A DNA stretch of 64,000 nucleotides from Diprion similis (Eukaryota; Arthropoda; Insecta; Hymenoptera; Diprionidae): positions 2,939,001 to 3,003,000 of the forward strand of contig NC_060109.1 in the NCBI RefSeq assembly GCF_021155765.1. Reading direction: 5' to 3'. The notes under the pieces were generated by a model. It saw only the letters and a list, made by a program, of their open reading frames with translations, was not told the origin of the DNA and did not search any database. Made by a program: the position numbers and the translations under genes. Positions 32,312-56,720 of the stretch are shown piece after piece. Each line of letters opens with the position of its first letter. Position 1 is the first letter of the stretch.

Positions 32312-33634
32312 TATGTGTATTCGATGTTTACAAAAAAAGATACAACATATAACAAATTATCACAAAACTAGCAGAAAAATAGCAACTGAGACGCTAATGG
32401 CCATAAACTACGTGCAATCTAGATCAAAACGAGATTGGTAACTGTGGCCTACTTTTTTACTATCAATACACGGGTCTTGAATTATAGTTAGACGTCAACG
32501 TCACCCTAGAATAAATCAAAGAACAATCCCTAGAACGCCGTATTGGAGGCACATACAGCTTACAAATTCCTGTTGCGGAACCATGCAGCCGATTACTGGG
32601 GGGAGGACATACCTGCCGACCACACGATAACGGAGCGCCGTAGATAAGCTAGCTCAAGGGATAATCTTGTGAGGTAAAGCAATAAGAATACCAAACAAGA
32701 AACATTATCATAACCACCTAGTATTAAATAACCATCTGTGTAACTTTTAAAATAATCATAATCAATATTAATAAGTAAATAGCATACAACTACAAACAAA
32801 AACTCAACCTCCCACAAGTCATATTTAAAACATCCACGGAATAGCTCCAGATACTAGGCAACCAATACACAGTAATGTATGCCTACACCACACTCACAAG
32901 GAGACCCACCTCAGTGGAAAAAACCCTAATTTGTGCATGTAGACCAAGTATCACTACGCGGGTGTGATCAAAATTCTGGAAGTACCATTGTTAGCACTGA
33001 AATACTTAAGATCTTGCATGCGTCTGGCAACGCCAAAAATGCGCTACAAGAAAATTTTTTTTAGTAGTGATAACAATAAAAATTAATAACAATAAATTGT
33101 ACACATTGTTTTTTGGTATGTAAACTTTATAAAAATATTTGATTCACTTTGCTTTTGCAAAAATTCCTATACAAAAAATCACGTCTTCCACAACACTGTA
33201 AAAAAATAGTTGCTCCACGGTCGACACAAAATTGTTGTAAAATAACGTTGCAGTTATAGTATTTCGAGCCGGAATTTAAAATTTCGAAATGTTTAGCAAT
33301 TTATGGCAGTTTAACAAAAGTATGCGTTTTACGTCATAAATTTTACACTTTTATTATTTTTATAAAATATTTAAATCAAAATATCAAAAATCCGACTCGA
33401 CATACTATAATAGAGAAAACGATATCGAATATTTGAAAAAAATCGCATCAAAAAATATTGAAAACTGTATGAGTTATCATGCCAACCGTGTCAGAAAAAG
33501 TATTTTGAGAAAAACGTTTTATGAATTTTTTTTATTTGTTCTGTAAATTTACGTTTAATCTCCGATTCCAGCTTCGTATTGTATGTCTTCCTTGTCGGTA
33601 GATTATTGTTTTTGTTTATTTTATACATGATGAT

Positions 33635-34872
33635 GAATTATTAACATTTCAGGTGATTTAAATATTTTCCAAGTTTCTGAGGTAATTGTTCAGTGCCCTC
33701 GGTAAAGTGATTGAAGATTTGTGGAATTTCGATCCTTCCAAATCTTGAGTTAGACAACAAATTGGTTCTTTGAAATTTAAAAAATACAACCATAGTACGT
33801 ATATAATTTGTGAAGTTAGATAACGGTTTTTATATCAAATTACACTAGGAAATATTCTGGAAAACAAGTTGTTCAACAGTTGACAATTCACTCGACCGCT
33901 TTTGTACCGAAATGGTACGCTTTGTTTAATCTTAATTATCTTAAAAAAAATCATATCGAAAATTTCGATGATCAATTGTTGGAAATTATTCAACCCGATT
34001 ATGGTGACAAGAGTTCAGACCAGGATCTGAAAAATTGCCGTTTAAGATAAGGTGAAGAAAAAAGTAAAAAAAATAGCATTTTTTTACAATTATTTATGTA
34101 CAGGACCTAATCTTTCGATATAAAATCCACACTTGTTTTATCTCTTCAGATTGCTTCAGTGTTACACCCACCGAACGCAGAGCCACAGTGACATTTCTTT
34201 TATCATCTGATAATCTGATCGCGAATTAAATATAATCTGTTTGCTTTAATTCTGATTTCTTACAAACTAACAGATTTCAAGAGTGATTAACTCCTCGGAT
34301 ATAACTGATTGTCCATCCCCACAATGTATTGTTCTCGTTTTTCGTATCAGTTTCATGTTTATTGGAGATTTGTGTATTACTTATTTACAATCATTAGATT
34401 ATGACAATCATTTACGGAAAATTTACAAGCACTTCTCATGTGACAACGGGTAAAGTTATTCGAAAATATCACCGAATGTTTGCAGTAATATAAACTGTAG
34501 GAGAATTATGGATATATAGCTTATTAGTTGGCCTATGAATAATATGATCACCCATTGATTACTACCAATTACTATGTATCAGTTAGGAAGCAAGGGTACT
34601 TCCATATACCAGTTGGTAGTTAGTACTGTTAATGATTTTTAGAATCTTCTAATTTCCACGGCCTGAATACGTGTCCATCAGCCTCTTTTCCCGCCATGTA
34701 AGTGAAGTACGCTTCTTTAAAGCTGAGGCTCGGGAACTTTCCAAACTCCATTGTAGGCCAATATGAACGGGCTTCACAAACATGCATCTTACGTAGTTGA
34801 CTGTAGTACTTTCTTTTGATGACTGAAGTCTGATCAAAACATAAGATTATGTCGACTTTCTTTCAACCTATA
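33635..34872. repeat. Left copy of a ~1.25 kb direct repeat flanking the Gag/zinc-knuckle locus
   Basis: It starts GAATTATTAACATTTCAGG and ends near AAGATTATGTCGACTTTCTTTCAA; the right copy occupies 41752-43018 in the same orientation, 8.1 kb away. Identity is roughly 90-98 percent by eye, highest around the embedded exon and its 3' flank. The right copy has an extra stretch of about 37 bases near 41895-41930. These are not LTRs: there is no TG..CA end, and the repeat carries the last exon of a neighbouring gene. Confidence 0.92.
34629..34829 (-). pseudogene. Orphan duplicate of the last exon of the 42775-47694 gene
   Basis: On the minus strand an acceptor (TTTTGATCAG) is followed by 66 open codons and TAA, the same length as the last exon of the large gene at 42975-42775. 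The copies differ by one His/Arg replacement (KMHVCEA against KMRVCEA) and at least one silent change in a Gly-Lys-Glu region, with no stop or frameshift. No upstream exons of the large gene are duplicated here, so it cannot be a gene by itself. It could act as an alternative last exon reached by splicing over about 8 kb, or be a recent dead copy. Confidence 0.85.
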
Positions 34873-36089
34873 TGTCCAGGACATGTAAGATATCTTGATC
34901 ATGTTCAGGATATCCAAAATGAATAACCCATCGCGGGGATATCCATTATACATCTGAAGTGCGTCCCATAATGTACCTTGAATGTACTGGAAATAGCAAT
35001 ATATGTCCAGGATCTATATAATATTCCGGAGATATTTATAAAATCGAAGATACGTATATGTTGCTCATGGATATCTATAATTTGTCCGGCACGTGATTCG
35101 ATTTATCATGGATATGCTGGTAGGATATCACATAGCGGATACATCGATGATATTTTTCGGAATTTGTCATAATGTGTATAAAATATATATGTGGCTCTTC
35201 AGATCAATTCAACTAAGGTCTAATCCTCATCTCGCTTGGATTGGGATTGCGATTTTTTATATATATTATTGTTTCAACTCTAAGATGCATCCCACCTGTT
35301 GTGAACAAAACCATAAACTGTATCGTAATGTTTAATTTCACGTACGTTGTATTTTTCGTTCAGCTGCAATCAAAATTCAAAAACATTAAAAACAATATCA
35401 GGCATAATACTTCGTGCGGCGATGTAGATTCTGCGATTCGGATGGAATCGATATCGATCACAATTCGCCGTTGCCGGACCCGTTCCTGCGTGAGCTACCA
35501 CGCGGACCACGCGCGGATTTTGGGTGCCAGCCCGTAAGATGGTGAATATTGTGATCTCATGACGGAAACTTCGACAAGAAAGTGGTAAGTACTGATTAAC
35601 TCAAACTTCTTATCATTCTGTTATATTTTTTGTGTGTTAGGGCCAGTATGTATATAAATTCTGAACGGATATTATTACTTGGTTGCAATTGAAGGTAAAG
35701 GTTACTCTGCGTTTTAGACGCCGCGTGTTTTTTGTTAGATATAGTTTTTTTTCTCTTGAAGTGGTTTGCACACAATAATTATACAGTCCATTGTACTACA
35801 TCAATCTTGTTAATATTTTTAGTTTAATACACGAAATGCGTAGTTGACACATAGTTGTCAAATTTATTCTTTGATATGTGCCTTGATTTTATTTTTATGT
35901 TTCCTGAACCATATTTCAGGGAATCACTTGAACCCCATCGTACTGCATGAATCTTATTGTTTTAGTTTAAAGCGAGAAATGCGTGGTTGACATATAAATG
36001 TCAAACTTATGCTGTGATATTAATTGTTTTTATTTTGATCTTGCTCGAACCATATTTATGATATTTCATAGGATTTAACATCGCAAATA

Positions 36090-36223
36090 TACACTTGTGT
36101 GCAGTGACCCTGAAACGGGCGCTATATTACAGTTTGTTTTTGAGCTTCGGTGTACTCCGACTATATCCTGTCGTACTCTAGTCTCCATGGCCTGTCGTCT
36201 CAAGATCACTGCACACAAGTGTA
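36090..36223. mobile_element. Small terminal-inverted-repeat element (134 bases)
   Basis: TACACTTGTGTGCAGTGA at 36090-36107 returns as its exact complement at 36206-36223. The inside is not self-complementary. Size and termini suggest a MITE, but I could not recognise a target-site duplication. Confidence 0.5.
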
Positions 36224-37060
36224 CAGACTACGTGACTGTAATTGTCATATTTGATCAGTCCAGATTGCGTTTATTAATACATAATATGTATATGTGAAAA
36301 ATAAATTACTGGTTCACGAACGTTAATACGAGTTTTTGATGATTGCTAATCGACCTACTTTATTCACCCTTCCCCTTGAAAATCTGTAGCGGTTTTTGTG
36401 AAATATTCCTGAGTACTAATAATAGCCTCATTAAATCCTAGAAGGCGTTCTGAAGTGTCCAAAGATATCTGCAGATGTACTGAGAATATATTATTTAAAC
36501 ATCCTCAAGACGGTCGCATAGGTGAACATTTGGGGATCCGTAGTATATCCGATATACGATTTTCCGTCTTAAGGACTATTCTGGACCTGCCACGGATTTC
36601 CATCATATCCCGTTAAGATTCAACGTTTGTCCCAAGTGTGAATCTTGGCTTAAGGGTTTGGTGTCACCGTGCTTAAAAAAAAATAAATGGTTAAAAATGA
36701 CATTTCTAGCCGCACCTCATGTATTACGATTAGTGCAATAAACGAAGGAAATCTTATAATCCTAATTCACAGCAGTTCAAATAAGATTTTCTAACAAAAA
36801 TTGGACAATCCGTGGCAGATAGTACAGTATGTGGTTAGCAGCGTTATCTTCGAAGGACACAACAGTTTTATAGCGTTCGGTGAGTAATGTGAAGTGTGTA
36901 ACAAAGAGAGGGCAAAGAGTGCGTCACCGGCATCATACGCCCCTCTTCCTTCCCGTTCATACGCCCCGTTTTTCCTTCCTGGGAGATTGCGGTTCTAGTC
37001 ATATATTGTGTTCGGGGATTCCCAAGAATAAGCTTCTTCAGTTGGTTAACAAAGAAGAAG

Positions 37061-40000
37061 ATGGACGGTTCAGCTGCAGTGGTTTTTGACGCATTAACGA
37101 AAGATAATTATAAAAGCTGGCGAATAAAAGCCGAAGCTTCGTTAAGAGTATCTCACCTGTGGAATTATGTCGGAGAGAACGAAAAATCACCGAAGGATGC
37201 TGAATTGTGGATGAAAGAGGATAAAATAGCTAAATCAAAATTGATATTGCATATCAGCAGCTCGCTGCTTCCATTAATCGAAAATTGTGCAACTACGCGA
37301 GAAATTTGGTCGAAGCTTGAGAATATTTACGGCAATAAAGATGAATTTGAAGCTTCAATTGATCATTCTGAAGCTGATGATGAGGATGCGATCATTAATA
37401 CTATTGAGGAATGTGTCGAAGATTTATTTGATATCATCAACAATTCACCAGAGAAAAAAATATCAGAGGATAAAAAATCACTCAGTACTACTTTTACCAG
37501 CAATTTACTCTCAAGATTGAAGGAAAATAATGTTGAGAAGATGCTGGATGAAAAAATAATCATCGATGCTGTGAGTGATTTCATCGATGTTATTGATCAA
37601 TTACCCAAGATTGAGATAAAAGAACACACGAATGACTTGAGCTGTGAACTCATTGATATTTTGCTGGTAAAATTTGGCATAAATCCTCATAAAAATGACA
37701 ACAGTGTAGCAAAAAGTGACGCCGTCAAAAGTGGAAAACCAGATGATGTCCAGGAAGAGAAAATTCCTAATGAAATTAGGAGCCAAGATAATCCATCAAA
37801 TACTCTGGATATTACGACAAATCAGAGTGAACAAATTGTGCAAAAAGAAGCATTGGTAGAGGATCAATCAAGAAAATTGATTGAGACCTACAGCAAATTG
37901 CCGCTCTCTAATCAGCAGTTCGATTACGAGAGAGTGCCTTATGAATCAGACGATGAACCAGGTAACAAAATATTATGAATGCATGAATATATCATAATCA
38001 CACATTACTAGTACATTTAATAATAGAATTTTTTCAGGATACAAGAATTCAATGCATCCATTGACGCATCTTAACACTCCACCACCTACGCCGATTCATA
38101 AAAAACTATACAAGTGTGGCATTTGTCGTAAAGAAGGTACCGAATTTATCAGATGAAATAAGTAGCGTTGATGCAATAAATAAAAATTGTCTTAATAATT
38201 CAGGACATAATCGAACAACTTGCTTGCTGAACAGGCCGATCACTTCTGGATCAAAATTTGCACAACTCACTGAAACTCCCAAAAGGTCACACAAATGTGG
38301 AGCATGTGGTAACGAAGGTATAAACAATTGGACAAAATGATCAACAAATTGTAACTCACAATGTAACTTGAAAATTGGTTGTAATTTTCAGGACATAACA
38401 GAACTTCTTGTCCGCTGAATAAATCAGTCACTTCTGCGTCGAAGTCTCCTCCTCGAGCTATTGAAATCCCAAAAAAGTCATACAAATGTGGAGCATGTGG
38501 TAACGAAGGTATAAACAATTAGACAAAATGATCAACAACATGTAACTCACAATGTAACTTGAAAATTGGTTTTAATTTTCAGGACATAACAGAACTTCTT
38601 GTCCGCTGAATAAATCAGTCACTTCTGCGTCGAAGTCTCCTCCTCGAGCTATTGAAATCCCAAAAAAGTCATACAAATGTGGAGCATGTGGTAACGAAGG
38701 TATAAACAATTAGACAAAATGATCAACAACATGTAACTCACAATGTAACTTGAAAATTGGTTTTAATTTTCAGGACATAACAGAACTTCTTGTCCGCTGA
38801 ATAAATCAGTCACTTCTGCGTCGAAGTCTCCTCCTCGAGCTATTGAAATCCCAAAAAAGTCATACAAATGTGGAGCATGTGGTAACGAAGGTATAAACAA
38901 TTAGACAAAATGAACAACAACATGTAACTCACAATGTAACTTGAAAATTGGTTTTAATTTTCAGGACATAACAGAACTTCTTGTCCGCTGAATAAATCAG
39001 TCACTTCTGCGTCGAAGTCTCCTCCTCGAGCTATTGAAATCCCAAAAAAGTCATACAAATGTGGAGCATGTGGTAACGAAGGTATAAACAATTAGACAAA
39101 ATGAACAACAACATGTAACTCACAATGTAACTTGAAAATTGGTTTTAATTTTCAGGACATAACAGAACTTCTTGTCCACTGAATGAATCGGTTACTTCTG
39201 CGTCGAAGTCTCCTGCGCGAGCTATTGAAATTCCGAAAAAGTTGCATAAATGTGGAGTATGTGGTGCAGAAGGTATAAACAAAGTCGAATCAATCAATAA
39301 CATGTAAAAATGATGAAACGGAAAATTTCTTTTAACTTTAAGGACACAACAGAACGACTTGTCAGATGAATAAACCAGCTGTTTCCGCGTGGAAACTCGA
39401 AAGTTACCTACCTGTAACTCCAAAGGTATATAAATGCGGAGGATGCGGCAATGAAGGTATAATCAAACATATATTAATTAACAAGGTATGATTTTGCAAT
39501 GTATATAAAAATTGTTTCGTAAACTTAGGACACAACATAACAACATGCCCACGATTGAAATCACTTGCTTCAACGCCTAAACCTGCTGCTATGAGTACTC
39601 CTGCCAGATCATATTCATGTGGATTGTGTGGAGGAGAAGGTATTACAGTGTAATGATAACGCGTATTATAGATCATGTATAAAATTAATGTCTTAAAAAT
39701 TTGTTGATCTGCAGGTCATAATAGATCAACGTGTTCCCGCAATTATGTAACGCCAACACCTTCGGCAAGAGCCTCTCCCAGATGCAGCACCTGTGGCAAT
39801 GAAGGTATAGTCTCAGATATCTTTACCAACTATCATTATCATATTGATTGTGATCAATATCACTAGTCAAGATGGGAGAAGTTAAACTATTTTTACTTTT
39901 TTGTGTCAGGTCACAACAGTAGAACTTGCGGCCGTCACAGTACTTCGTCATTCGCCGCTTTCAGATCTTCGTACTCGTCCTTACCTCCCTCACCTTCATA

Positions 40001-40214
40001 TTCATATCCTTCACTGTCATTCTCATCTCCATCACCATCTTACTCCGGAGGGGGTGGTCGTAGTTATACGTGTGGCAACTGTGGTGGTTCAGGTAAGAGA
40101 ACCTTACCAATTACTTCATGATAAAAAAAAAAATCAATATCGTTGGTAAGATGCAGTACTAATTGAGTATTACTTTCATTTTTAGGACACAATCGAAGAA
40201 CATGCCAAGGTTAA
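37061..40214 (+). CDS. Domesticated Copia-type Gag with eleven CCHC zinc knuckles
   Basis: Thirteen exons (37061-37961, 38038-38136, 38204-38317, 38392-38508, 38583-38699, 38774-38890, 38965-39081, 39156-39272, 39343-39456, 39529-39639, 39715-39804, 39910-40092, 40186-40214) join in frame to 741 residues. Residues 1-100 are a Ty1/copia-type Gag N-terminal domain: LTKDNYKSWRIKAEASL, then LWNYV, a Trp-containing KEDK.AKS.L.L.IS segment, and TREIWSKLENIYG. Residues 105-300 are acidic and helical, without pol homology. From residue 327 on, eleven CX2CX4HX4C knuckles begin at 327, 365, 404, 443, 482, 521, 560, 598, 635, 665 and 726, joined by Ser/Pro/Lys linkers of 16-47 residues. No protease, integrase or reverse transcriptase follows. 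Knuckles of this kind bind single-stranded nucleic acid; a role as RNA-binding or capsid-like protein is inference. The introns are typical spliceosomal ones, so this is a host gene rather than an active element. Confidence 0.85.
38392..39155 (+). repeat. Four tandem 191-bp exon+intron units inside the zinc-knuckle gene
   Basis: Units start at 38392, 38583, 38774 and 38965. Each is a 117-base exon plus a 74-base intron. The four exons appear identical base for base, and the introns differ only at one position I could see (ATGATCAACAAC in the first two, ATGAACAACAAC in the last two). Flanking units (exon 3 side and exon 8) are clearly related but diverged. This is recent tandem amplification, and the two-plus-two pattern suggests a doubling of a pair. 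Confidence 0.95.
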
Positions 40215-42774
40215 CTCACATTCCAAGGCATCGACGTATTATTTTAACATCTACAACTGTCAAGTCTAAAATAATACTTTTACTTAATCGTTATTTTTCT
40301 AAACGGTTATTAGTTCTGTTGTTCTGTCAAGCGTAACATGATGCGTTTAATTTTTTCTCAGTGTTTAATAGTTATTGCTTATTATTTTTTTTTTTCTTTA
40401 ACACATAATGAAAACAGAATTAATAACTCGCATTGGAATAGTTTCACGATTGTTTTAATGGTTATAACCGTCGAGTATAAAATAATATATCTATACTTAT
40501 TTCTTTTTTTAACGATCGTTAGATACTTGACTATCAATCGTAATACGATATGTTTAATTATTCTTTTCTTTCCTTTGGTTTCAAATGTTTGCAACTTATA
40601 CTTTTTATCTTTAACATTGTAATGTATTATATTGGTACGATTGGAACTCATGAATAGCTACGAATTTACTCGTTCTCTCATCCTAGGTATAAGTGACCTC
40701 AGTCTTAGTTCGACCTGTAAACTATGAGCATCAATAAACCCTGACTGAATGTGATTCGTATTATATTAATTATTATTTCACCTGAGTACATCACAACATA
40801 ATATGAAAAATTCGAATATTAACTCACATCTGTATCTTTTGAAGAACTATATCAAGCTTAAGATGATACATCTATACGTATTTCTCTCCTCAACGATTGT
40901 CGATCAATTGTAACGATACGTTTGATCATTACTCTAATGAACAATGTGAATATTGATGGTAATAGTGGAGCATGTATGTATTTTTAACAAATACGACTAT
41001 AAAACTAAAGTAATACGTTTACTTGTTCCTCTTTTTTATGCATTTTTATGGATGAAATAAAATTATACTTACAAATGTGTATAAGTTTATCGAAGTATGG
41101 TATAATCGTGGTCCCAAAACTTTCCCATTGGTACGATAGGTTTCATGAAACTGTGCCAGTAAATGCAATGAGATTAGAGAATTTTTCAAGAAGTTGTGAA
41201 TTTTCGAAAATAAAATTCAGATATTCATAACACATGAACGATAGAAATTAACGAACATCGTGAAAACTTCTCTCATTAGGCGTTATCAACCCTAGAATTT
41301 TTGATGGAATAAAAAATTCGATATATCATTCCCGTACGTTAATGATGGAGAATGTATATTGCATGTTAACAATTGAATGAGCAAATGATTAATACATAAT
41401 CGTTTTTCCTCGATCCAATTAAATTCCTCAAGCAAAGGCAGAAGGACGTGAGTACACGCACTTTTGATACCGAAAATAAGGGAAAAAATGAATAACAATT
41501 GGTTCCAAGTTTTCGTATGCGCCATACTATTATCATTTTCCATATTTCCGTTGTCTTCAAAATGGAAATGAAAAGCGAATGTTATTAAAAGATGCGTGTT
41601 TTGCTTTCAACCTTTTCATTAGACCAGTTAAATATTATCTGCGCGTCTTTATTAATTTTGTGGTGTATTGGCGAAAAAAATGTACAATATATCTACCTAT
41701 GATCAAGGTTGAACTTCCGAAGGGTCATAATATCGATGAGATAGCATTCACGAATTATTAACATTTCAGGTGATTTAAATATGTTCCAAGTTTCTGAGGT
41801 AATTGTTCAGTGCCCTCGGTAAAGTGATTGAAGATTTGTGGAATTTCGATCCTTCCAAATCTTGAGTTAGACAACAAATTGGTTCTTTGAAATTTTGATC
41901 TAATTGCTACTTCGATCAATACCCAAAAAATACAAGCATAGTACGTATATAATTTGTGAAGTTAGACGACGGTTTTAATATCAAATTACACTAGGAAATG
42001 TTCTTAGAAACAAGTTGATCAATAGTTGACAATTCACTCGACCGCTTCTGTACCGAAATTGTAGGCTTTTTTTAAATCTTAATTATCTTTAAAAAAATCG
42101 TTTCGAAAATTTTGATGATCAATTGTTGGCAATTTTTCAACACGATTATGGTGACAAGAGTTCAGGCCAGGATCTGAAAAATTGCCGTGTAAGATAAATT
42201 GAAGAAAAAAGTTTAAAAAATAGCGTTTTTTACAATTATTTATGTACAGGACCTAATCTTTCGATATAAAATCCACACTTGTTTTATCCCCTCAGATTAC
42301 TTCACTGTTACACCAATCGAATGCAGAGCCACAGTGACGTTTCTTTTATCATCTGATAATCTGATCGCGAATTAAATATAATCTGTTTGCTTTAATTCTG
42401 ATTTCTTACAAACTAACAGATTTCAAGAGTGATTAACTCCTCGGATATAACTGATTGTCCATCCCCACAATGTATTGTTCTCGTTTTTCGTATCAGTTTT
42501 ATGTTTATTGGAGATTTGTGTATTACTTATTTACAATCATTAGATTATGACAATCATTTACGGAAAATTTACAAGCACTTCTCATGTGACAACGGGTAAA
42601 GTTATTCGAAAATATCACCGAATGTTTGCAGTAATATAAACTGTAGGAGAATTATGGATATATAGCTTATTAGTTGGCCTATGAATAATATGATCACTCA
42701 TTTAATACTACCAATTACTATATATCAGTTAGGAAGCAAGGGTACTTCCATATACCAGTTGATAGTTAGTACTG
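40215..42774. other. 3' flank of the Gag gene and of the converging large gene
   Basis: AT-rich DNA with no convincing coding exon; the only ORFs are short and of poor composition. From 41752 the right copy of the direct repeat begins, which here is the 3' UTR and downstream flank of the minus-strand gene. Confidence 0.55.
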
Positions 42775-43018
42775 TTAATGATTTTTAGAATCTTCTAATT
42801 TCCACGGCCTGAATACGTGTCCATCAGCCTCTTTTCCGGCCATGTAAGTGAAGTACGCTTCTTTAAAGCTGAGGCTCGGGAACTTTCCAAACTCCATTGT
42901 AGGCCAATATGAACGGGCTTCACAAACACGCATCTTACGTAGTTGACTGTAGTACTTTCTTTTGATGACTGAAGTCTGATCAAAACATAAGATTACGTAA
43001 ACTTTCTTTCAAGCTATA
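41752..43018. repeat. Right copy of the ~1.25 kb direct repeat, holding the genuine last exon
   Basis: It matches 33635-34872 in direct orientation. The right copy includes the functional last exon (42975-42775) joined in phase to the upstream exons of the large gene, so it is likely the source and the left copy the derivative. Confidence 0.92.
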
Positions 43019-46000
43019 GACGCAATTTAAATTTAACAGTGTGTCAACCAACGGACTATGCAACCACGCATCTTAGTTACGTAGAAGTGGATGATCTTGA
43101 ACGGCAATAAGTGTAGGGCTTGGTTTATTTAGCACCATTAAAACGGTATTTTATTTATTGAAAGAAGGATTACCTTTTCTTTCATTTCTATCGCTCTATC
43201 AAAAGTCATTGTAGCAATTTCAAACGGAGTTAACTGCAATGATGGTGGCGGAATACTGGGTTTCTTGGTTTGCTGCATCATGCCCCATCTTTTTCTCGAA
43301 ACGTCGCACAATTTATCTGAAAATAATGGAAGTAAAATAATATCACCATTAAGATGGTTGAACGCGTTTGAGATATTAAAAAAATATCATACTTTTCATC
43401 CTGTCAGTGATGACTTTTCCTTCTCGGTATTCGATCCAGGATCTCAACTGAGGTATCAACCAACACTCAGGTAGTTTAGCTAGAATAAAATCTTCGCTGG
43501 CCATCTTTTGCAATTCATCCTGTAACATTCTTTATTTATTAGGATTGTATCAGTTTGGTCACAACAACGTCTCATTTTCAAGAAATTTTATCCTCAGTTT
43601 CATCGTGTCTGAGCAGAAATGTAGAAAGCGCGCATAGTTACCTTCATCAATTCATATAAATCTCTTTTAGTTTCTGAAGTTGATTTATCCTGCTCCGAAT
43701 TACCTTGAGTAGGGTCTATATTTAATTCCGGAGTCTTATTTGTGGATGATGCAATTTTTTGTGAATGATATTGCTGCTTTTCCGCATTTTCAAATTCTTC
43801 ACTTCTCGTTGTAATCGTTTTTTTCACGTTACTCCTATTCTTACTAGTGCTCGCTTGAGTAGTTTCCTTCATTACTTCTTCAGTCAGACTTTGTGTAATT
43901 TTTTTCGCACCTAACTTCGTTCTTTCCACATCACGGTTTGCGTTGCGAACTTCATTCTCACCAATATTAACCTTCAGTTTGCATTTCTTCATCTCATGCA
44001 ATTGTCCACCGTTTTGAGCAATCGAGCTACGACCTCCGCCACCATCAGCGCAGCTGTGGTAGGCCACGTAAGGTTTACTACTATCATCAATGCTCAGTGA
44101 CTCTTCCATGCCTCCACCAATATCATTCGGAATCTCCTTCCGTTGTTCTCTTCCTCTGCACGGATAGTCTATTGCCCGCAGGGCAAGACCTTCCGGTGCC
44201 AATCCACCTGCCGTAATGTCTGTCGGAGACCAATGTCTGTGTCCACACATGCAAAGAATATCTGGTTTGCTGGGTTCAGGGGTGACCAAAGGACTCTGCA
44301 TCGTAATACCAGGAACAATATGCCGAGGAGGTCCCATAGCATAATTTTCTGCCACTCCACTAACGCAGTACTGGGATTCTGGAATGAACTCGCCGTCTCG
44401 CAGAACTTTTTTTACTGATGAAATGATGAGCTTCGTGTCATGCCCCATTGGCCTCGATGTTCCTGCAACCTGCATGTACGGCTGTTTTTTCGCTGCTCTT
44501 AAACGCTGTTGGCGATCAAACCATTTTTGCTTCTCTTCTTCTCTTTTTACCACCCTTCTCTCGTACCGGCATTCACATACAGGCTTTTTCACCTGTAACA
44601 ATTTTGGCTTCGCGCAACAACCAGCTTTTGAAAACTTCGCGCACTTCAACCAACAAGGTACCGCGTCCTGACAGCTAGTAAAGAAGTCAATCAAGCCGTC
44701 ATCCTTCAGAGCCGAAGACCGTGTCTTTGCTTTTGAGTCATCTGTGCGTTGGTCTTTTTCCTTGTCAGGTAAATTCTCTACAATACACTCTTCACGTTTA
44801 TCGCGACACGCACACGATTCTTTGTTAGTTTCTTTCTTTGGCGACAGACCTTGGGGAGTCGAGATTTCATCTATATATTTTAGATCCTGGTCAGATCTTT
44901 TTCGCTCGCACATTTTGTAGGGAGATTCAAAGAGTTCGTACTCAGGGATGTATTCACTGCTGTTTCTAGGGCTTTGTGGAGGTGTTACGTAAGTTACTCC
45001 TTCTATGAGCTGGGGCCGATCATTTTTCCTTCCACCCTTTGAAACGCTCACTGCTCCTCCAATATTGTAAATGAGAATTTTTTTCTTGTTTCTGTTTTCT
45101 CTGCATTTACATGGTCGCCCGCCTTCTCTTACTTTTACCATATCGACTTGATCAGGTGGTTCCACGAGGTATACCAAAGTCTTTTCTCGTGGAAGTGCTT
45201 GTTGGGATTTAGTTCTCCACCCAAATGGTCCCTCTTTTTCTTTACGGCTTTTGTTATTCATACTAGTTTCCCCGTCGTCTGAACAGCCACAATTATCCGA
45301 TTCGCTATCAGATTGTGTGTCCTGTCTTTGACAAGGCATACGTGGTTCATTTGGAATGATTGCAGGTGCTACTTTGTACTCATCAGATTTTTTGCCAACT
45401 CTCGAAACTGCCTGAGCCTGTGGAGCTGATGAGGACGAGCCAGGAGTTACTTTAGTTTTATGTTTTTTGAACGTGGTGTCACGCTCATGCCTGAAAGTTT
45501 TTTGGGGGGGTGATTTTTGAACCTTTGTAATTTTTTTTAACCTTTCCTTGTCTTTTTCGTTTTCGAAATCATTTTTCATCGATCGCTTACTCCTACCATC
45601 GTTACTTTTTTCGGAACTCTGAGCTCGCTTTCTTTTGCGATTATCAACATCTTCTATCTTTTTGGACTTAGCAAATTTCGTCGGTTGTGATTTTTTTTCT
45701 GTACAAGAGACGTTGGCACTTTTTAAACTTTTGGCCTTACGAGTTGTTCGACTTTCTTCCGAAGAATCTATTCGGTTTTTGTTATAAGTAAGCGAGTTAG
45801 TTCGTACACATTCACTTGCCAGAACTCCGCTTTTGGCATTAGATTGTTGACCATTGGTAACTGCATTCGAATTGAGTAAACGAGGCTGACCTTCTGTCAC
45901 CTGTTTACCACTGTAAATCACTTCAACATTATCTTTTGTCTTTACGCCGTGTCCTTTGACATTGGATCTGATATTGTTTGTATCCTCTTTCAGAGATTCA

Positions 46001-51660: not shown

Positions 51661-54600
51661 ATGGATTACGGTTCGAGGATGTGCTTGCTAATCAGTGTGC
51701 TCGTGGTTTATCAGATATTTCAATCTGCAAATGGTACAAAATTATCTCTATCCAAATATTTATCGAAACATTGATACGCTATCTCAGAGTAGTGAATGTA
51801 GTGCCCATCCTTTACGTTGCGTTAATTTATAGATCAGGAAGATTCGTATCAGATAAACCGATACGAATAATCTCATGCATGGCTAATTGATATAACAGTC
51901 TTCTTGTTTAATACACTCCAACGTCGATTACTAATAACAAAAGCATCGGTAACAGTCAATCAAACACTGGATGATTGCGAAACCGTTACTTTTTAATCGA
52001 TTCATAGTAGTAAATTGATCCATAATCATCGAGCAGGGATGAATCTCACCTTTAGTCAGGCTCGTTTGAACAATTAGAATTTTACCTGTGCGCAAAAATA
52101 TTTGCAACAATTAATACTTTGCAATTAATGTTTGATATCGTTATTGTTTTGTTTCTCGTTTTGTGTCAATGGCGGATGCTACTCAATACATCGTGACCGA
52201 TTTTAACATTATATCATTACACACCGTTAATATGATGATAGATTCCGATCGATCTAGGCGATTTATAAAATTTCAGATGAAAATAAACCTCGCTCCCTTA
52301 TTTTCTTAAAGCTACATCATCACAATCAACACAGCCGTATTAGAAATTATGCCTATGGGGCGTGGTTTAACACTCTCGCCGTATGTATCGTACGCATGTT
52401 CAGTCACGCGTGACTCATTCTCTGTTCCAGAATCATGAATAAAGTAATTTTCAACTTCTCATTGATATTTAGAAAATTTGTATGAATGATGAGATAAAAT
52501 TATGAAATATATAAAAAAAAGTTGTAAGCCTGTTGTTTTCTTTTCTGTTTTTCATTATTTCATCATATCTACTGTTTTTGTGCGCTGGTTGCTGTCATTT
52601 TTTATGTCAAATTTTGTTTGTAATTATAGTATTTGGTTTTGTTCTGTATCACGAGGATTTGTCAGGTGGACAAGTCAAAAAATTATTGCAATTCAAGAAG
52701 TAAAAAAAAACGTCGTCAGCTTTAACTGAAATTAATGAAACTAAATTTGGTTGCAACAATATCCCTTCTGTATAGATAATAATTGAAAACCTGTAAATTT
52801 GCATTGACTGAATAAGGTTAGTTCTTGACGATCATTGTTCAAAGATCTGCTCGGTTTGTTCCTGAAGCATTTGAATTAGATAATTTTGGCACGAATGTAA
52901 TTTACTTCACATTGCTAACAACTAAGCCCTCTCCACCAAACTTTACAATTTCCAATTTTTTCTCTGTGTTGAGGTAAAATTGGATCAATCACATTAAGAT
53001 GAATGAACCTAATTCATTTGTTGAAAATTTTAATGTTTGTATAATGATTCTTTAATTGTGATATTTTTGGATACAAGGTATACTAAATACGCCTCATTAC
53101 CTGTACTTGCAGGTCTATTGATTAACAACACCATCGTGTGGTGCACGGTATCGGATGCTGAACAGCGAAAGTGCGAAGCGTTCTCCAAAGCGGTGGACCA
53201 GAAAATATCAAGCTTTACGTTCAGGGATATATCTTTAGCATGCAAACAAGCATTCAACGAAGAGGCCTGCATGACCATGTTAGACGAAGAAAAAGCACAC
53301 TTGACCACATTGGATCCTGGGGAGGTATTCATCGCTGGAAGATACCACAGTCTTCTGCCAATTATGCAAGAAAAACTTGTTACCGGATTAACTAGTCAGT
53401 CCGCAGTAGCGGTAATAAAGAAAGGCGGACTGTCTGATGTTCTCTCCCTTAGGGATCTCAGAGGTAAAAAGGCCTGTTTTGCAGGAGTAGGAACTCAAGC
53501 TGGCTGGGTCATCCCGATACACACGGTACGCCATGATTTGTTTCACCAGCTTATGACGCACAAAAACAAAAGTCTTTGTTCCTAGTCAGTTAATATGTAA
53601 CCTGATTGGTACCATTCATCTCTGTAATTAGTTATTGTCATTTATATTGTAATTACTTGAGAACATTTGTCTCATCGACTCATTGACGGGTCTCATTATG
53701 ATAATCGTTCAAATTCATTTGGAATTAAAAGACTTTCTGGTTGCAGTTACGGAAGTGATTTTTATTTTGTGCCCAGATTTATATTTTCCAGTTACGGTAG
53801 AAAACTAAAATAGGTAAAGACTGTGTAGCCATGGCAACTAGAAATTTCTCTCGGTGGTGATTTCATGTATGCTGACAAAACAAAATATAAGTAAACTATT
53901 ATAATTTGTACTTTCAGTTAATGGAGCAAGGTGGAATGGAAGTGATTGACTGCAACAACCATGTGAAATCAACGATAAATTACTTTGGTCCAAGCTGTGC
54001 TGTTAATGCATTGATTGACAAATATAATCCGTTAGGTGAGTAGCAATGATTCTTGTAATAAGATAAGCACTGATAACTGATTATAATATTAAAAAGAATA
54101 TTATTTTGGTAGTATAAATGTTACTATCAAATCATTCATATTTCTTGTATATAGGAATATATATTTTTGATGAATATTGAAGAAAATTTAATTACCTTTA
54201 TCATTTTTCAGGTGACAATTCCGATCAATTGTGTAAGCTCTGTATAGGTAAAGTACCAGGTGGAAAATGTACGAACGCAGACCCATATGCTGGATACGAA
54301 GGTGCTTTCAAATGCTTACTTGAAGCTGGCGACATAGCATTCCTTGTTGATACAACAGTGCAAGAGATGACCTCGAATACTCTTGATTTGAGTAAGTCCA
54401 AGTATCAATACACAAAAGTTTGGTAACTTCGAAATTCAAGTGTTACAACATTCTTGACAATTATTATAGCGTCACCTTATCAAAATATTGAATATGAAGT
54501 GTTCATTAATTAATTGTTTCATAGATTCACCTAGCAAGGATCAATTTGAGCTGCTATGCACTGATGGAAGTCGTAGGCCAGTTGACGATTTTCGTAATTG

Positions 54601-56720
54601 TAATTGGGGCAGCGTACCATCGCGAGCGATTGTTACCTCATCTGCGACAGATGTGAACATGCGCAAACTGTATCAGAGATTTCTTATAACAGCTAGTCAG
54701 GAATTTTCCAACTCATCTGCAAATTCCAATTCCTCATTCACGAACGACAATCGTTTCGGAAATCGAGATGGTTATGAGAATAGACCTAGTTTTGACAACC
54801 GACAAGGCTATGATAGATCTGACGATCGTAATTATAACAATAACTTTTCTGGTAACAGAAATTTTTATTATCGTAACGGATCGGAAAACAATTTTGAGCA
54901 AGGAAACAATAACGGACTGTATCCTTCGGACCGACAAAGTCCAGGCTATGTGGAAAATCCCAATATAGCTGACATACTTCCTCTGGAGAATTTTGACTTG
55001 TTCGAATCATCTCCGAGATATGGAGAACATCATAATTTATTATTTTCGGTAATTGTCAATTTGAACTTTATTGTCTGAAAAGTCTATTTACTTCAAATTG
55101 CATGCCACCATTATTTGTCCTAACAATGATTATATTTTATCAGGATTCAACCAGAGAGTTTCATTTGTTAGCTGAAAAGGACCAAAACTATCCACAATAT
55201 CTTGGACGATCCCTGAATGCTATTTTGGCTGTTAGACATTGCCCAGTGAACAGAATGACTTTGTGCGTAACTTCCGAGCCTGAAATGGAAAAGTGTATTA
55301 AAATGAGGGTAAATATTGATGAATTCTATTATCTTATGTGACATTAGTAGCAACGATCATTTTTCATAATTATAAAAAACTTTGATTTCAGATCGCATTG
55401 AAGGCACAGTTGTTGAAACCAGAAATGGTCTGCTATAAGGGTCACAGTCAGATACATTGCATGCAGGCTATACAAAATGGGTGAGTAAATCTTGGAGATC
55501 ATCCAATTTAATATCAACCTAAAGTAACGAGAAAATGAATTTTATAATTATCAATCGATTTTCAAAACAAAGTTGGTGATATTTCAATTTAATACTATAT
55601 TAAGTCGACAATAGAGAACATCACTATTATCTACTTAAAATCTCACGTGTGATGAAGACATAATGCCAACGAAAAGTAAAAAAATTTGATGATAAATATA
55701 ACTGAGCATGATATTCTTCAAATTTCTTTTTTTACCAGAGATGCCGACGTGACGGAGTTAGATGCTAGCGACGTTTACACGGCGGGTCTGCGATATGGAC
55801 TCATACCGTTCATCTCCGAAGTCTATAATCTGGGCAGTCCTGACTACTACGTTGTGGCTGTAGCCAAGGAAGAGGACCCGACCACGGATTTGACATACTT
55901 GAAAAATAAGTACACTTGTCATCCTGGAATAAACACTGCAGCAGGCTGGGTCTATCCCTTGGCTTACTTGATTTCAAACGGATGGATCAGGGGCTATGGA
56001 TGTGATTCGGTGCGCGCAGCTGCAGAATACTTCACTAAATCCTGTATACCCGGTGCTCTGAGCACCGAATATAATACCGGAGTGCCGTACGACAATATGT
56101 GTGACTTGTGCCATGGAGCGAGCTACAGATACTGCCGCCGAGATGCTTCTGAAGATTATTTTGGATACACCGGTGCTTTCAGGTGTTTAGTCGAAGGTGG
56201 AGGCAATGTTGCTTTTGTCAAACATACAACAGTCGCCGAAAATACCGACGGTAAGCGAAGATCCACTTGGGCTCGAAACACGTTCACCAAAGATTTCGAG
56301 CTGTTGTGTCCAGACGGAACGCGACGACCTACAGGAAAATACATGGAATGTAACCTCGGAAAGGTTGCCGCCAATGCAATCGTAACACGAGGCGGATATT
56401 ACGGGTATAATGAAACCCAACTCAACGCTTATATCAATCTATTTGTTTATGCGCAGCAATATTATGGCAGGAAAGATCCCGACGAGTTCAGTTTCAGCAT
56501 GTTCTACAGCACGCCACCTTATAGTGATCTAATTTTCCAAGATGCTGCTCAACAGCTTGTCGTTATCCCACCTGAGAAGAGACAGTTTAGCGCGTATGTG
56601 GGGCCCGATTTTATGAGGGCTAGGAGAATTACTGACTGTAATGCTGGAGCTGCTGCTATTCAGTATACTATCATTGGATCATTCGCTATGGGACTTTTGG
56701 CTGTACTACTAGGCAGCTAG
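51661..56720 (+). CDS. Tsf2: Transferrin 2 (melanotransferrin-like, GPI-type), two-lobed
   Basis: Eight exons (51661-51733, 53113-53525, 53918-54035, 54212-54391, 54525-55048, 55144-55308, 55392-55480, 55739-56720) join in frame to 847 residues. Exon 1 is a signal peptide (hydrophobic CLLISVLVVYQIF, cleavage near SANG). Both transferrin lobes follow: N-lobe TLDPGEVF, PYAGYEGAFKCLLEAGDIAF; C-lobe ELDASDVYTAG, DYYVVAVAK, GYTGAFRCLVEGGGNVAFVK. The end is a hydrophobic tail (YTIIGSFAMGLLAVLLGS) after a small-residue stretch, as for a GPI anchor. The C-lobe keeps Asp and both Tyr iron ligands, but the His position reads Asn (VAANAIVTR). The N-lobe keeps Asp and one Tyr; the other Tyr (SQSAVAVIK) and the His (VPSRAIV) are replaced. 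An Asn/Arg/Gly-rich insertion occupies residues 322-408. In Drosophila the orthologue is needed for epithelial septate junctions. Confidence 0.95.

Follow-up and report, generated by a model that had tools for sequence, protein, structure and literature searches.

Host genes derived from the Gag of retroelements include Arc/dArc1, PEG10 and Gagr; Arc and Gagr are of the Ty3/gypsy type (PMC11835246, PMC6525542, PMC11684626, PMC8956099), Gagr being a gypsy-derived domesticated gag gene of Drosophila (PMC8956099). In plants, the relatives of HadGAG2/Ctrg10 are copia-type Gag host genes with 1, 2, 5 or 6 zinc knuckles (PMC9784723). The Ty1 restriction factor p22/p18 is a partial Ty1/copia-type Gag that is made without pol and affects how Gag assembles (PMC8458377, PMC4599808), and truncated Ty1 relics of yeast have been suggested as possible restriction factors (PMC7055915). 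In Drosophila, the capsids of Copia Gag act at synapses, a case where the whole copia element is in use (PMC11835246). Several knuckles in one RNA-linked protein are found in CNBP/Gis2 (PMC3528734). Here we describe gene A, found in a 64,000-nucleotide stretch of the Diprion similis genome (contig NC_060109.1, positions 2,939,001 to 3,003,000; hereafter the window), in which a copia-type Gag lobe is joined to eleven such knuckles. PEG10 is likewise of the Ty3/gypsy type, and HEXBP is a further knuckle-array protein. To our knowledge, none of Arc/dArc1, PEG10 and Gagr has a knuckle array as large as that of gene A, and neither CNBP/Gis2 nor the other knuckle-array proteins have a Gag domain.

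Gene A shares with HadGAG2/Ctrg10 the presence of PF14223 in a multi-exon host gene and a knuckle number that varies among relatives. The plant proteins carry DEK_C (PF08766) and PC4 (PF02229) domains and their knuckles are given as PF00098 (PMC9784723), whereas for gene A Pfam lists PF14223 and none of DEK_C, PC4 and PF00098. Moreover, gene A is built from exon cassettes, of which section 2.6 of PMC9784723 makes no mention for HadGAG2/Ctrg10. The original prediction, according to which known domesticated Gags come from Ty3/gypsy, was incomplete: gene A is not the first domesticated copia Gag with extra knuckles, as the HadGAG2 relatives described in PMC9784723 have up to six. Unlike Ty1 p22/p18, gene A has its N-lobe within a host gene with knuckles. 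On the whole, it differs from the prior cases in taxon, in clearly keeping only the first Gag lobe, in knuckle type and in the exon cassette, and no comparable host gene of an animal came up in the parts of the literature covered on domesticated and restriction-factor Gags, knuckle exons and arrays, and sawfly copia gag.

The explanation that we favour, with a probability of about 0.6, is that a Ty1/copia-type Gag was domesticated and gave rise to a family of host genes to which gene A belongs, and whose product would be a ribonucleoprotein-forming, multivalent nucleic-acid-binding protein. That the N-lobe of a copia-type Gag was domesticated into a host gene with introns, as the original prediction had proposed, is well supported by the sequence data, because there are paralogs, signs of purifying selection, no long terminal repeats (LTRs) and none of the pol parts tested (protease and integrase). 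The gene family is real and probably functional.

Spliced from the raw sequence, gene A (37061-40214 of the window, plus strand) has 13 exons that yield a single frame of 741 amino acids with eleven CX2CX4HX4C knuckles (Table 1). All 12 introns are GT-AG introns of phase 1, 67-105 bases long, and the retention of any one of them would give rise to an in-frame stop. The predicted exon, intron and knuckle counts, the coordinates and the intact frame thus proved correct, and so did the acidic spacer, since residues 96-300 hold 48 acidic (D+E) against 22 basic (K+R) residues; the knuckle part (residues 301-741) is basic, with 18 against 65. Introns 2-12 each split one knuckle at the same spot, directly 5' of GH, and exons 3-12 are cassettes in which a linker stands between the closing half of one knuckle and the opening half of the following one. 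Because introns 2-12 are all of phase 1 and share this position, unequal exchange between cassettes can change the number of knuckles and leave frame and splicing intact.

The copia-type nature of the N-terminus, also part of the original prediction, is confirmed by profile searches. Residues 27-96 match Retrotran_gag_2 (PF14223, copia-type Gag) in Pfam with an E-value of 4.9e-12, and residues 12-37 match DUF4219 at E 6e-5, below the family cut-off. Gene A and its paralogs B and C (see below) were combined into a host profile, which aligned over residues 12-95 with a second profile built from nine copia Gag pieces of this genome (P 1.2e-18). In a tree, the three host Gag lobes group as a single clade (ultrafast bootstrap 100). 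In phmmer searches, exon 1 matched the solved Copia virus-like particle protein over residues 15-94 at just E 0.056-0.094, behind a HEPN toxin (E 0.013) whose match was taken for chance. As for a HEPN/HepT likeness of the helical domain that follows the Gag lobe, the phmmer matches with exon 1 (E 0.013 and 0.018) were gone with the three-sequence profile, and in Foldseek searches with the exon 1 models, which are poor, HepT came no better than E 3.6. No relative was found in viral contigs searched with exon 1.

The match to Retrotran_gag_2 covers the first half of the profile (positions 4-79/80 of 172) and ends at residue 96-97; four resident copia Gags span the profile nearly whole. In a search of the insect's own genome, the domain of about 100 residues past residue 96 was found in just the three host genes. 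Helices are predicted over residues 101-210, with predicted local distance difference test (pLDDT) values of 58-87 in 10-residue blocks of a single-sequence model that is poor overall. Residues 104-205 are possibly a strongly diverged Gag C-lobe, as a marginal signal appears where the copia C-lobe is expected: the hhalign score was 16.6, hmmsearch with the copia C-lobe in a three-sequence database gave E 0.0008 (C), 0.011 (B) and 0.025 (A), and Retrotran_gag_2 reached E 0.06 at this position in one of the three members. Known capsid lattices use the second Gag lobe. A product acting as a capsid-forming, Arc-like cargo carrier would agree with the retention of the Gag N-lobe under constraint and with the RNA-containing capsids formed by Drosophila Copia Gag (PMC11835246), and it is opposed by the match to just the first half of the Gag profile, by a C-lobe signal equalled by 2 of 200 column shuffles and by poor N-lobe structure models that gave no informative fold comparison. 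In the latter, single-sequence models of exon 1 (mean pLDDT 53.7) and of residues 1-212 (mean pLDDT 58.6) found no Foldseek match at E ≤0.001, a result that says nothing either way because the input predictions are poor. We regard such a carrier as unlikely.

The whole genome (269 Mb, 60 contigs) was searched with exon 1 at a threshold of E 10, which returned 61 matches with gene A as the best. Three genes have an open exon 1, namely gene A and two paralogs on the same contig, B and C, situated 1.06-1.08 Mb away and 69% and 51% identical to gene A in this exon, respectively. Paralog B consists of 9 exons encoding 507 amino acids with 6 intact knuckles and paralog C of 11 exons encoding 763 amino acids with 9 intact knuckles; in both, the introns are of phase 1 and lie at the same position as in gene A. 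Among the other 58 matches, the 17 inspected resemble copia Gag sequences, whole or partial. Copia-like matches are numerous in the genome and over a dozen sit in open frames of 1292-1437 amino acids. Seven matches (G000 C1:1506458 and others; one inspected, L024) have equal scores and a 1357-amino-acid open frame, which suggests a recently spread copia family.

Selection was estimated by comparing paralogs within this genome. Between A and B, the ratio of nonsynonymous to synonymous substitution rates (dN/dS) comes to 0.30 for 230 codons of exon 1 (bootstrap 0.19-0.46), to 0.28 for 98 codons from seven knuckle cores (bootstrap 0.14-0.56) and to 0.80 for 176 linker codons (bootstrap 0.53-1.23), with the recent copies A4-A7 left out of the codon comparison. 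Exon 1 gave similar values for A-C (0.29) and B-C (0.24), less exact as dS exceeds 1. A and B share 26 of 28 zinc-ligand positions, and the two that are lost belong to a single knuckle of B. Purifying selection on the frame is therefore seen in exon 1 and in the knuckle cores and, as judged from these codon sites, the Gag lobe and the knuckle cores are under constraint and the linkers evolve nearly freely. At an A-B dS of 0.67, an unselected frame of such length would be expected to be broken. A chance origin of gene A is unlikely because two paralogs have the same exon plan and because the Gag part and the knuckle cores are constrained, the linkers much less.

The cassettes record how the array has grown. 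Exons 4-7 of gene A are identical in all six pairs (0/117 differences), with at most 1/74 bases different in their introns. In paralog C, exons 4-7 are also identical (0/120), their introns differ at up to 3/71 bases, and exons 3-9 differ pairwise by at most 11/120. In a tree of the knuckle exons, computed without A12, B8 and all first and last exons, A4-A7 join A8 (support 0.72) and then B4 (0.86), and C3-C10 stand apart from every A and B exon (0.92), the placement of C10 relative to C3-C9 having a support of 0.49. This grouping implies that the arrays of A and C lengthened separately; as far as these alignments tell, the cassettes have been amplified recently and independently in two paralogs. 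Unequal exchange of whole 191-bp cassettes is the likely mechanism, since the introns are about as uniform as the exons in the amplified sets.

The proposal that selection has favoured many knuckles, made in the original prediction, stands in part: the knuckle cores of the older units are constrained (0.28) and amplification occurred twice, but the copies are so recent that drift is possible. In a neutral version, the gene would be functional and its knuckle number would drift through tandem-repeat instability. The amplified cassettes are near-identical in their introns too, as recent unequal exchange predicts, and B, without amplification, has six knuckles; the separate amplification in two paralogs and the constraint on the older cores are harder to reconcile with drift. 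This version concerns the length of the array, is compatible with domestication and may be held as a tentative, somewhat less probable account of it.

The type of knuckle gives a further indication about the origin of the array. In Pfam, to which paralog C was submitted with its repeat units omitted, gene A matches zf-CCHC_2 at E 1e-21 over 10 stretches, above the cut-off. This model is above cut-off in all three host proteins, and zf-CCHC_6 matches two of them. PF00098 is listed for none of the three; it is listed for all four resident copia Gags tested (three above cut-off, one below) and is the best knuckle model for each of them. Furthermore, the intact knuckles of the host genes number 26 (11 in A, 6 in B and 9 in C) and are not independent, since many are recent copies; 25 of them read GHN and one GHK. 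Among 15 knuckles counted in 16 copia pieces from this genome, 14 of which had one or two and two of which had none, GHN did not occur. By sequence type, the array differs from the resident copia knuckle and is not simply a multiplied version of it. Because of this difference, the array may derive from a knuckle gene of the cell to which a Gag exon was joined, or a single Gag knuckle may have been altered before multiplying. The first possibility, in which a cellular gene already had the knuckle array and acquired a fragment of copia Gag as its exon 1, fits the Pfam and GHN contrasts as well as the presence of an intron at the junction between Gag and array. Nevertheless, zf-CCHC_2 also lists two of the four copia Gags, below cut-off; copia Gags end in CX2CX4HX4C knuckles too, one of which could have diverged and then multiplied; the host knuckles, as said, are largely recent copies; and no second gene with such a knuckle array was found in the same genome among the best candidates scored, in a family search to which intron-split knuckles are invisible. 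A chimeric origin, which is compatible with domestication, is thus conceivable and falls short of being the more probable course.

A reading that would exclude domestication is that gene A is a mobile element, either a non-autonomous Gag-only element of the TR-GAG type or a decayed copia copy. Direct repeats 1.27 kb long and with 94% identity stand on either side of the gene and look like LTRs at first sight, and a dispersed repeat lies just upstream. However, the direct repeats were found at only two places in the genome, both here, so the paralogs are without them; they neither begin with TG nor end with CA; and both hold the same open minus-strand stretch, for which reason they may be part of a neighbouring gene that was duplicated. 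An LTR-flanked element was therefore rejected, as the repeats are a local duplication in two copies and have no LTR end motifs; a TR-GAG element has its Gag frame between terminal repeats, and gene A has no terminal repeats of that kind. The twelve introns and the constraint on the Gag lobe and knuckle cores also argue against mobility, which we consider very improbable. As for the absence of a pol remnant claimed in the original prediction, pieces of copia protease and integrase found no match at E 1 in 33001-44000, with two control loci positive, and that much holds; reverse transcriptase and RNase H were outside the search. A 20-residue match to the protease/integrase pieces at E 0.18 occurs in locus L010, near the paralogs. 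About 0.4 kb separates the end of the right copy of the 1.27-kb repeat from a frame on the minus strand that matches DUF4771 below threshold. Larger pieces of the dispersed repeat, 75-91% identical, are present on contigs C5, C7, C9 and C13. Other features of the window are listed in Table 1.

Table 1. Features of gene A and its surroundings, in positions of the window.
Feature	Position	Strand	Basis or remark
Gene A exon 1: Gag-derived domain, helical domain, acidic linker; 300 amino acids and one base	37061-37961	+	Spliced model, Pfam Retrotran_gag_2
Copia Gag N-lobe homology, residues 12-95	37094-37345	+	Profile-profile alignment; Retrotran_gag_2 over 27-96
Family-specific helical domain, residues 104-205	37370-37675	+	Genome search, single-sequence structure model, weak C-lobe signal
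Knuckle array, exons 2-12 (exon 2: linker and first half of knuckle 1)	38038-40092	+	Spliced model
Exons 2-4	38038-38136, 38204-38317, 38392-38508	+	
Exons 5-7	38583-38699, 38774-38890, 38965-39081	+	
Exons 8-10	39156-39272, 39343-39456, 39529-39639	+	
Exons 11-13	39715-39804, 39910-40092, 40186-40214	+	
Exon 13: remainder of knuckle 11, stop codon	40186-40214	+	Spliced model
Recent 191-bp tandem amplification, exons 4-7 and introns between	38392-39081	+	Exons identical, introns ≤1/74 different
Possible polyadenylation signal AATAAA	40733-40738; another at 41056	+	Motif match only
Direct repeats of 1.27 kb	33635-34872 and 41752-43018		
Dispersed repeat adjoining gene A upstream	34873-36619		
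Open frame of 1364 amino acids	43600-47694	-	No Pfam match at E 0.01
Transferrin-like gene, several exons; one frame with an N-rich stretch	53034-56720		

Some observations weigh against the favoured explanation. Part of the family is decaying: one knuckle of B is lost and its array is interrupted by an intron of about 2 kb, in C the last knuckle is damaged and the C-terminus is changed, with a read-through tail, and further copies are fragmentary. Between C and B lie fragments of apparently two such copies (L010 627-1530 and 5606-6640), one of them closely related to B; no Gag exon turned up in either. The family thus shows both birth and decay, gene A being its most regular member. Moreover, A-B identity at the DNA level is 77-86% in seven pairs of introns, about that of the preceding exons (73-88%), so that the case for constraint is carried by codon sites only. 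The second Gag lobe is not clearly recognisable in gene A, and copia as the target of its product is something that we infer.

From a functional perspective, the number of knuckles would set the avidity with which they bind single-stranded RNA or DNA, and the Gag lobe together with the helical domain would mediate self-association or association with resident copia Gag. Resident copia elements with long open frames would be possible targets. In our judgement, a host RNA-binding role is the most likely use, with interference with copia Gag or RNA as its leading specific version. Spelled out as a copia-derived anti-retrotransposon factor of an animal, in which the N-lobe targets copia Gag or particles, the knuckle number, variable through unequal exchange of the 191-bp cassettes, tunes the hold on element RNA, an arms race has lengthened the array and copy number is probably polymorphic today, this version is rather doubtful. 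These accounts are not mutually exclusive, since a chimeric origin, a capsid carrier and a neutrally varying array are each compatible with a domesticated, nucleic-acid-binding Gag family, the mobile element being the exclusive one.

If transcribed and translated, gene A would represent a copia-type Gag domesticated in an animal. The cassette with an intron inside the knuckle would offer a simple route from few to many knuckles, and natural variation in copy number would make the importance of knuckle number testable.
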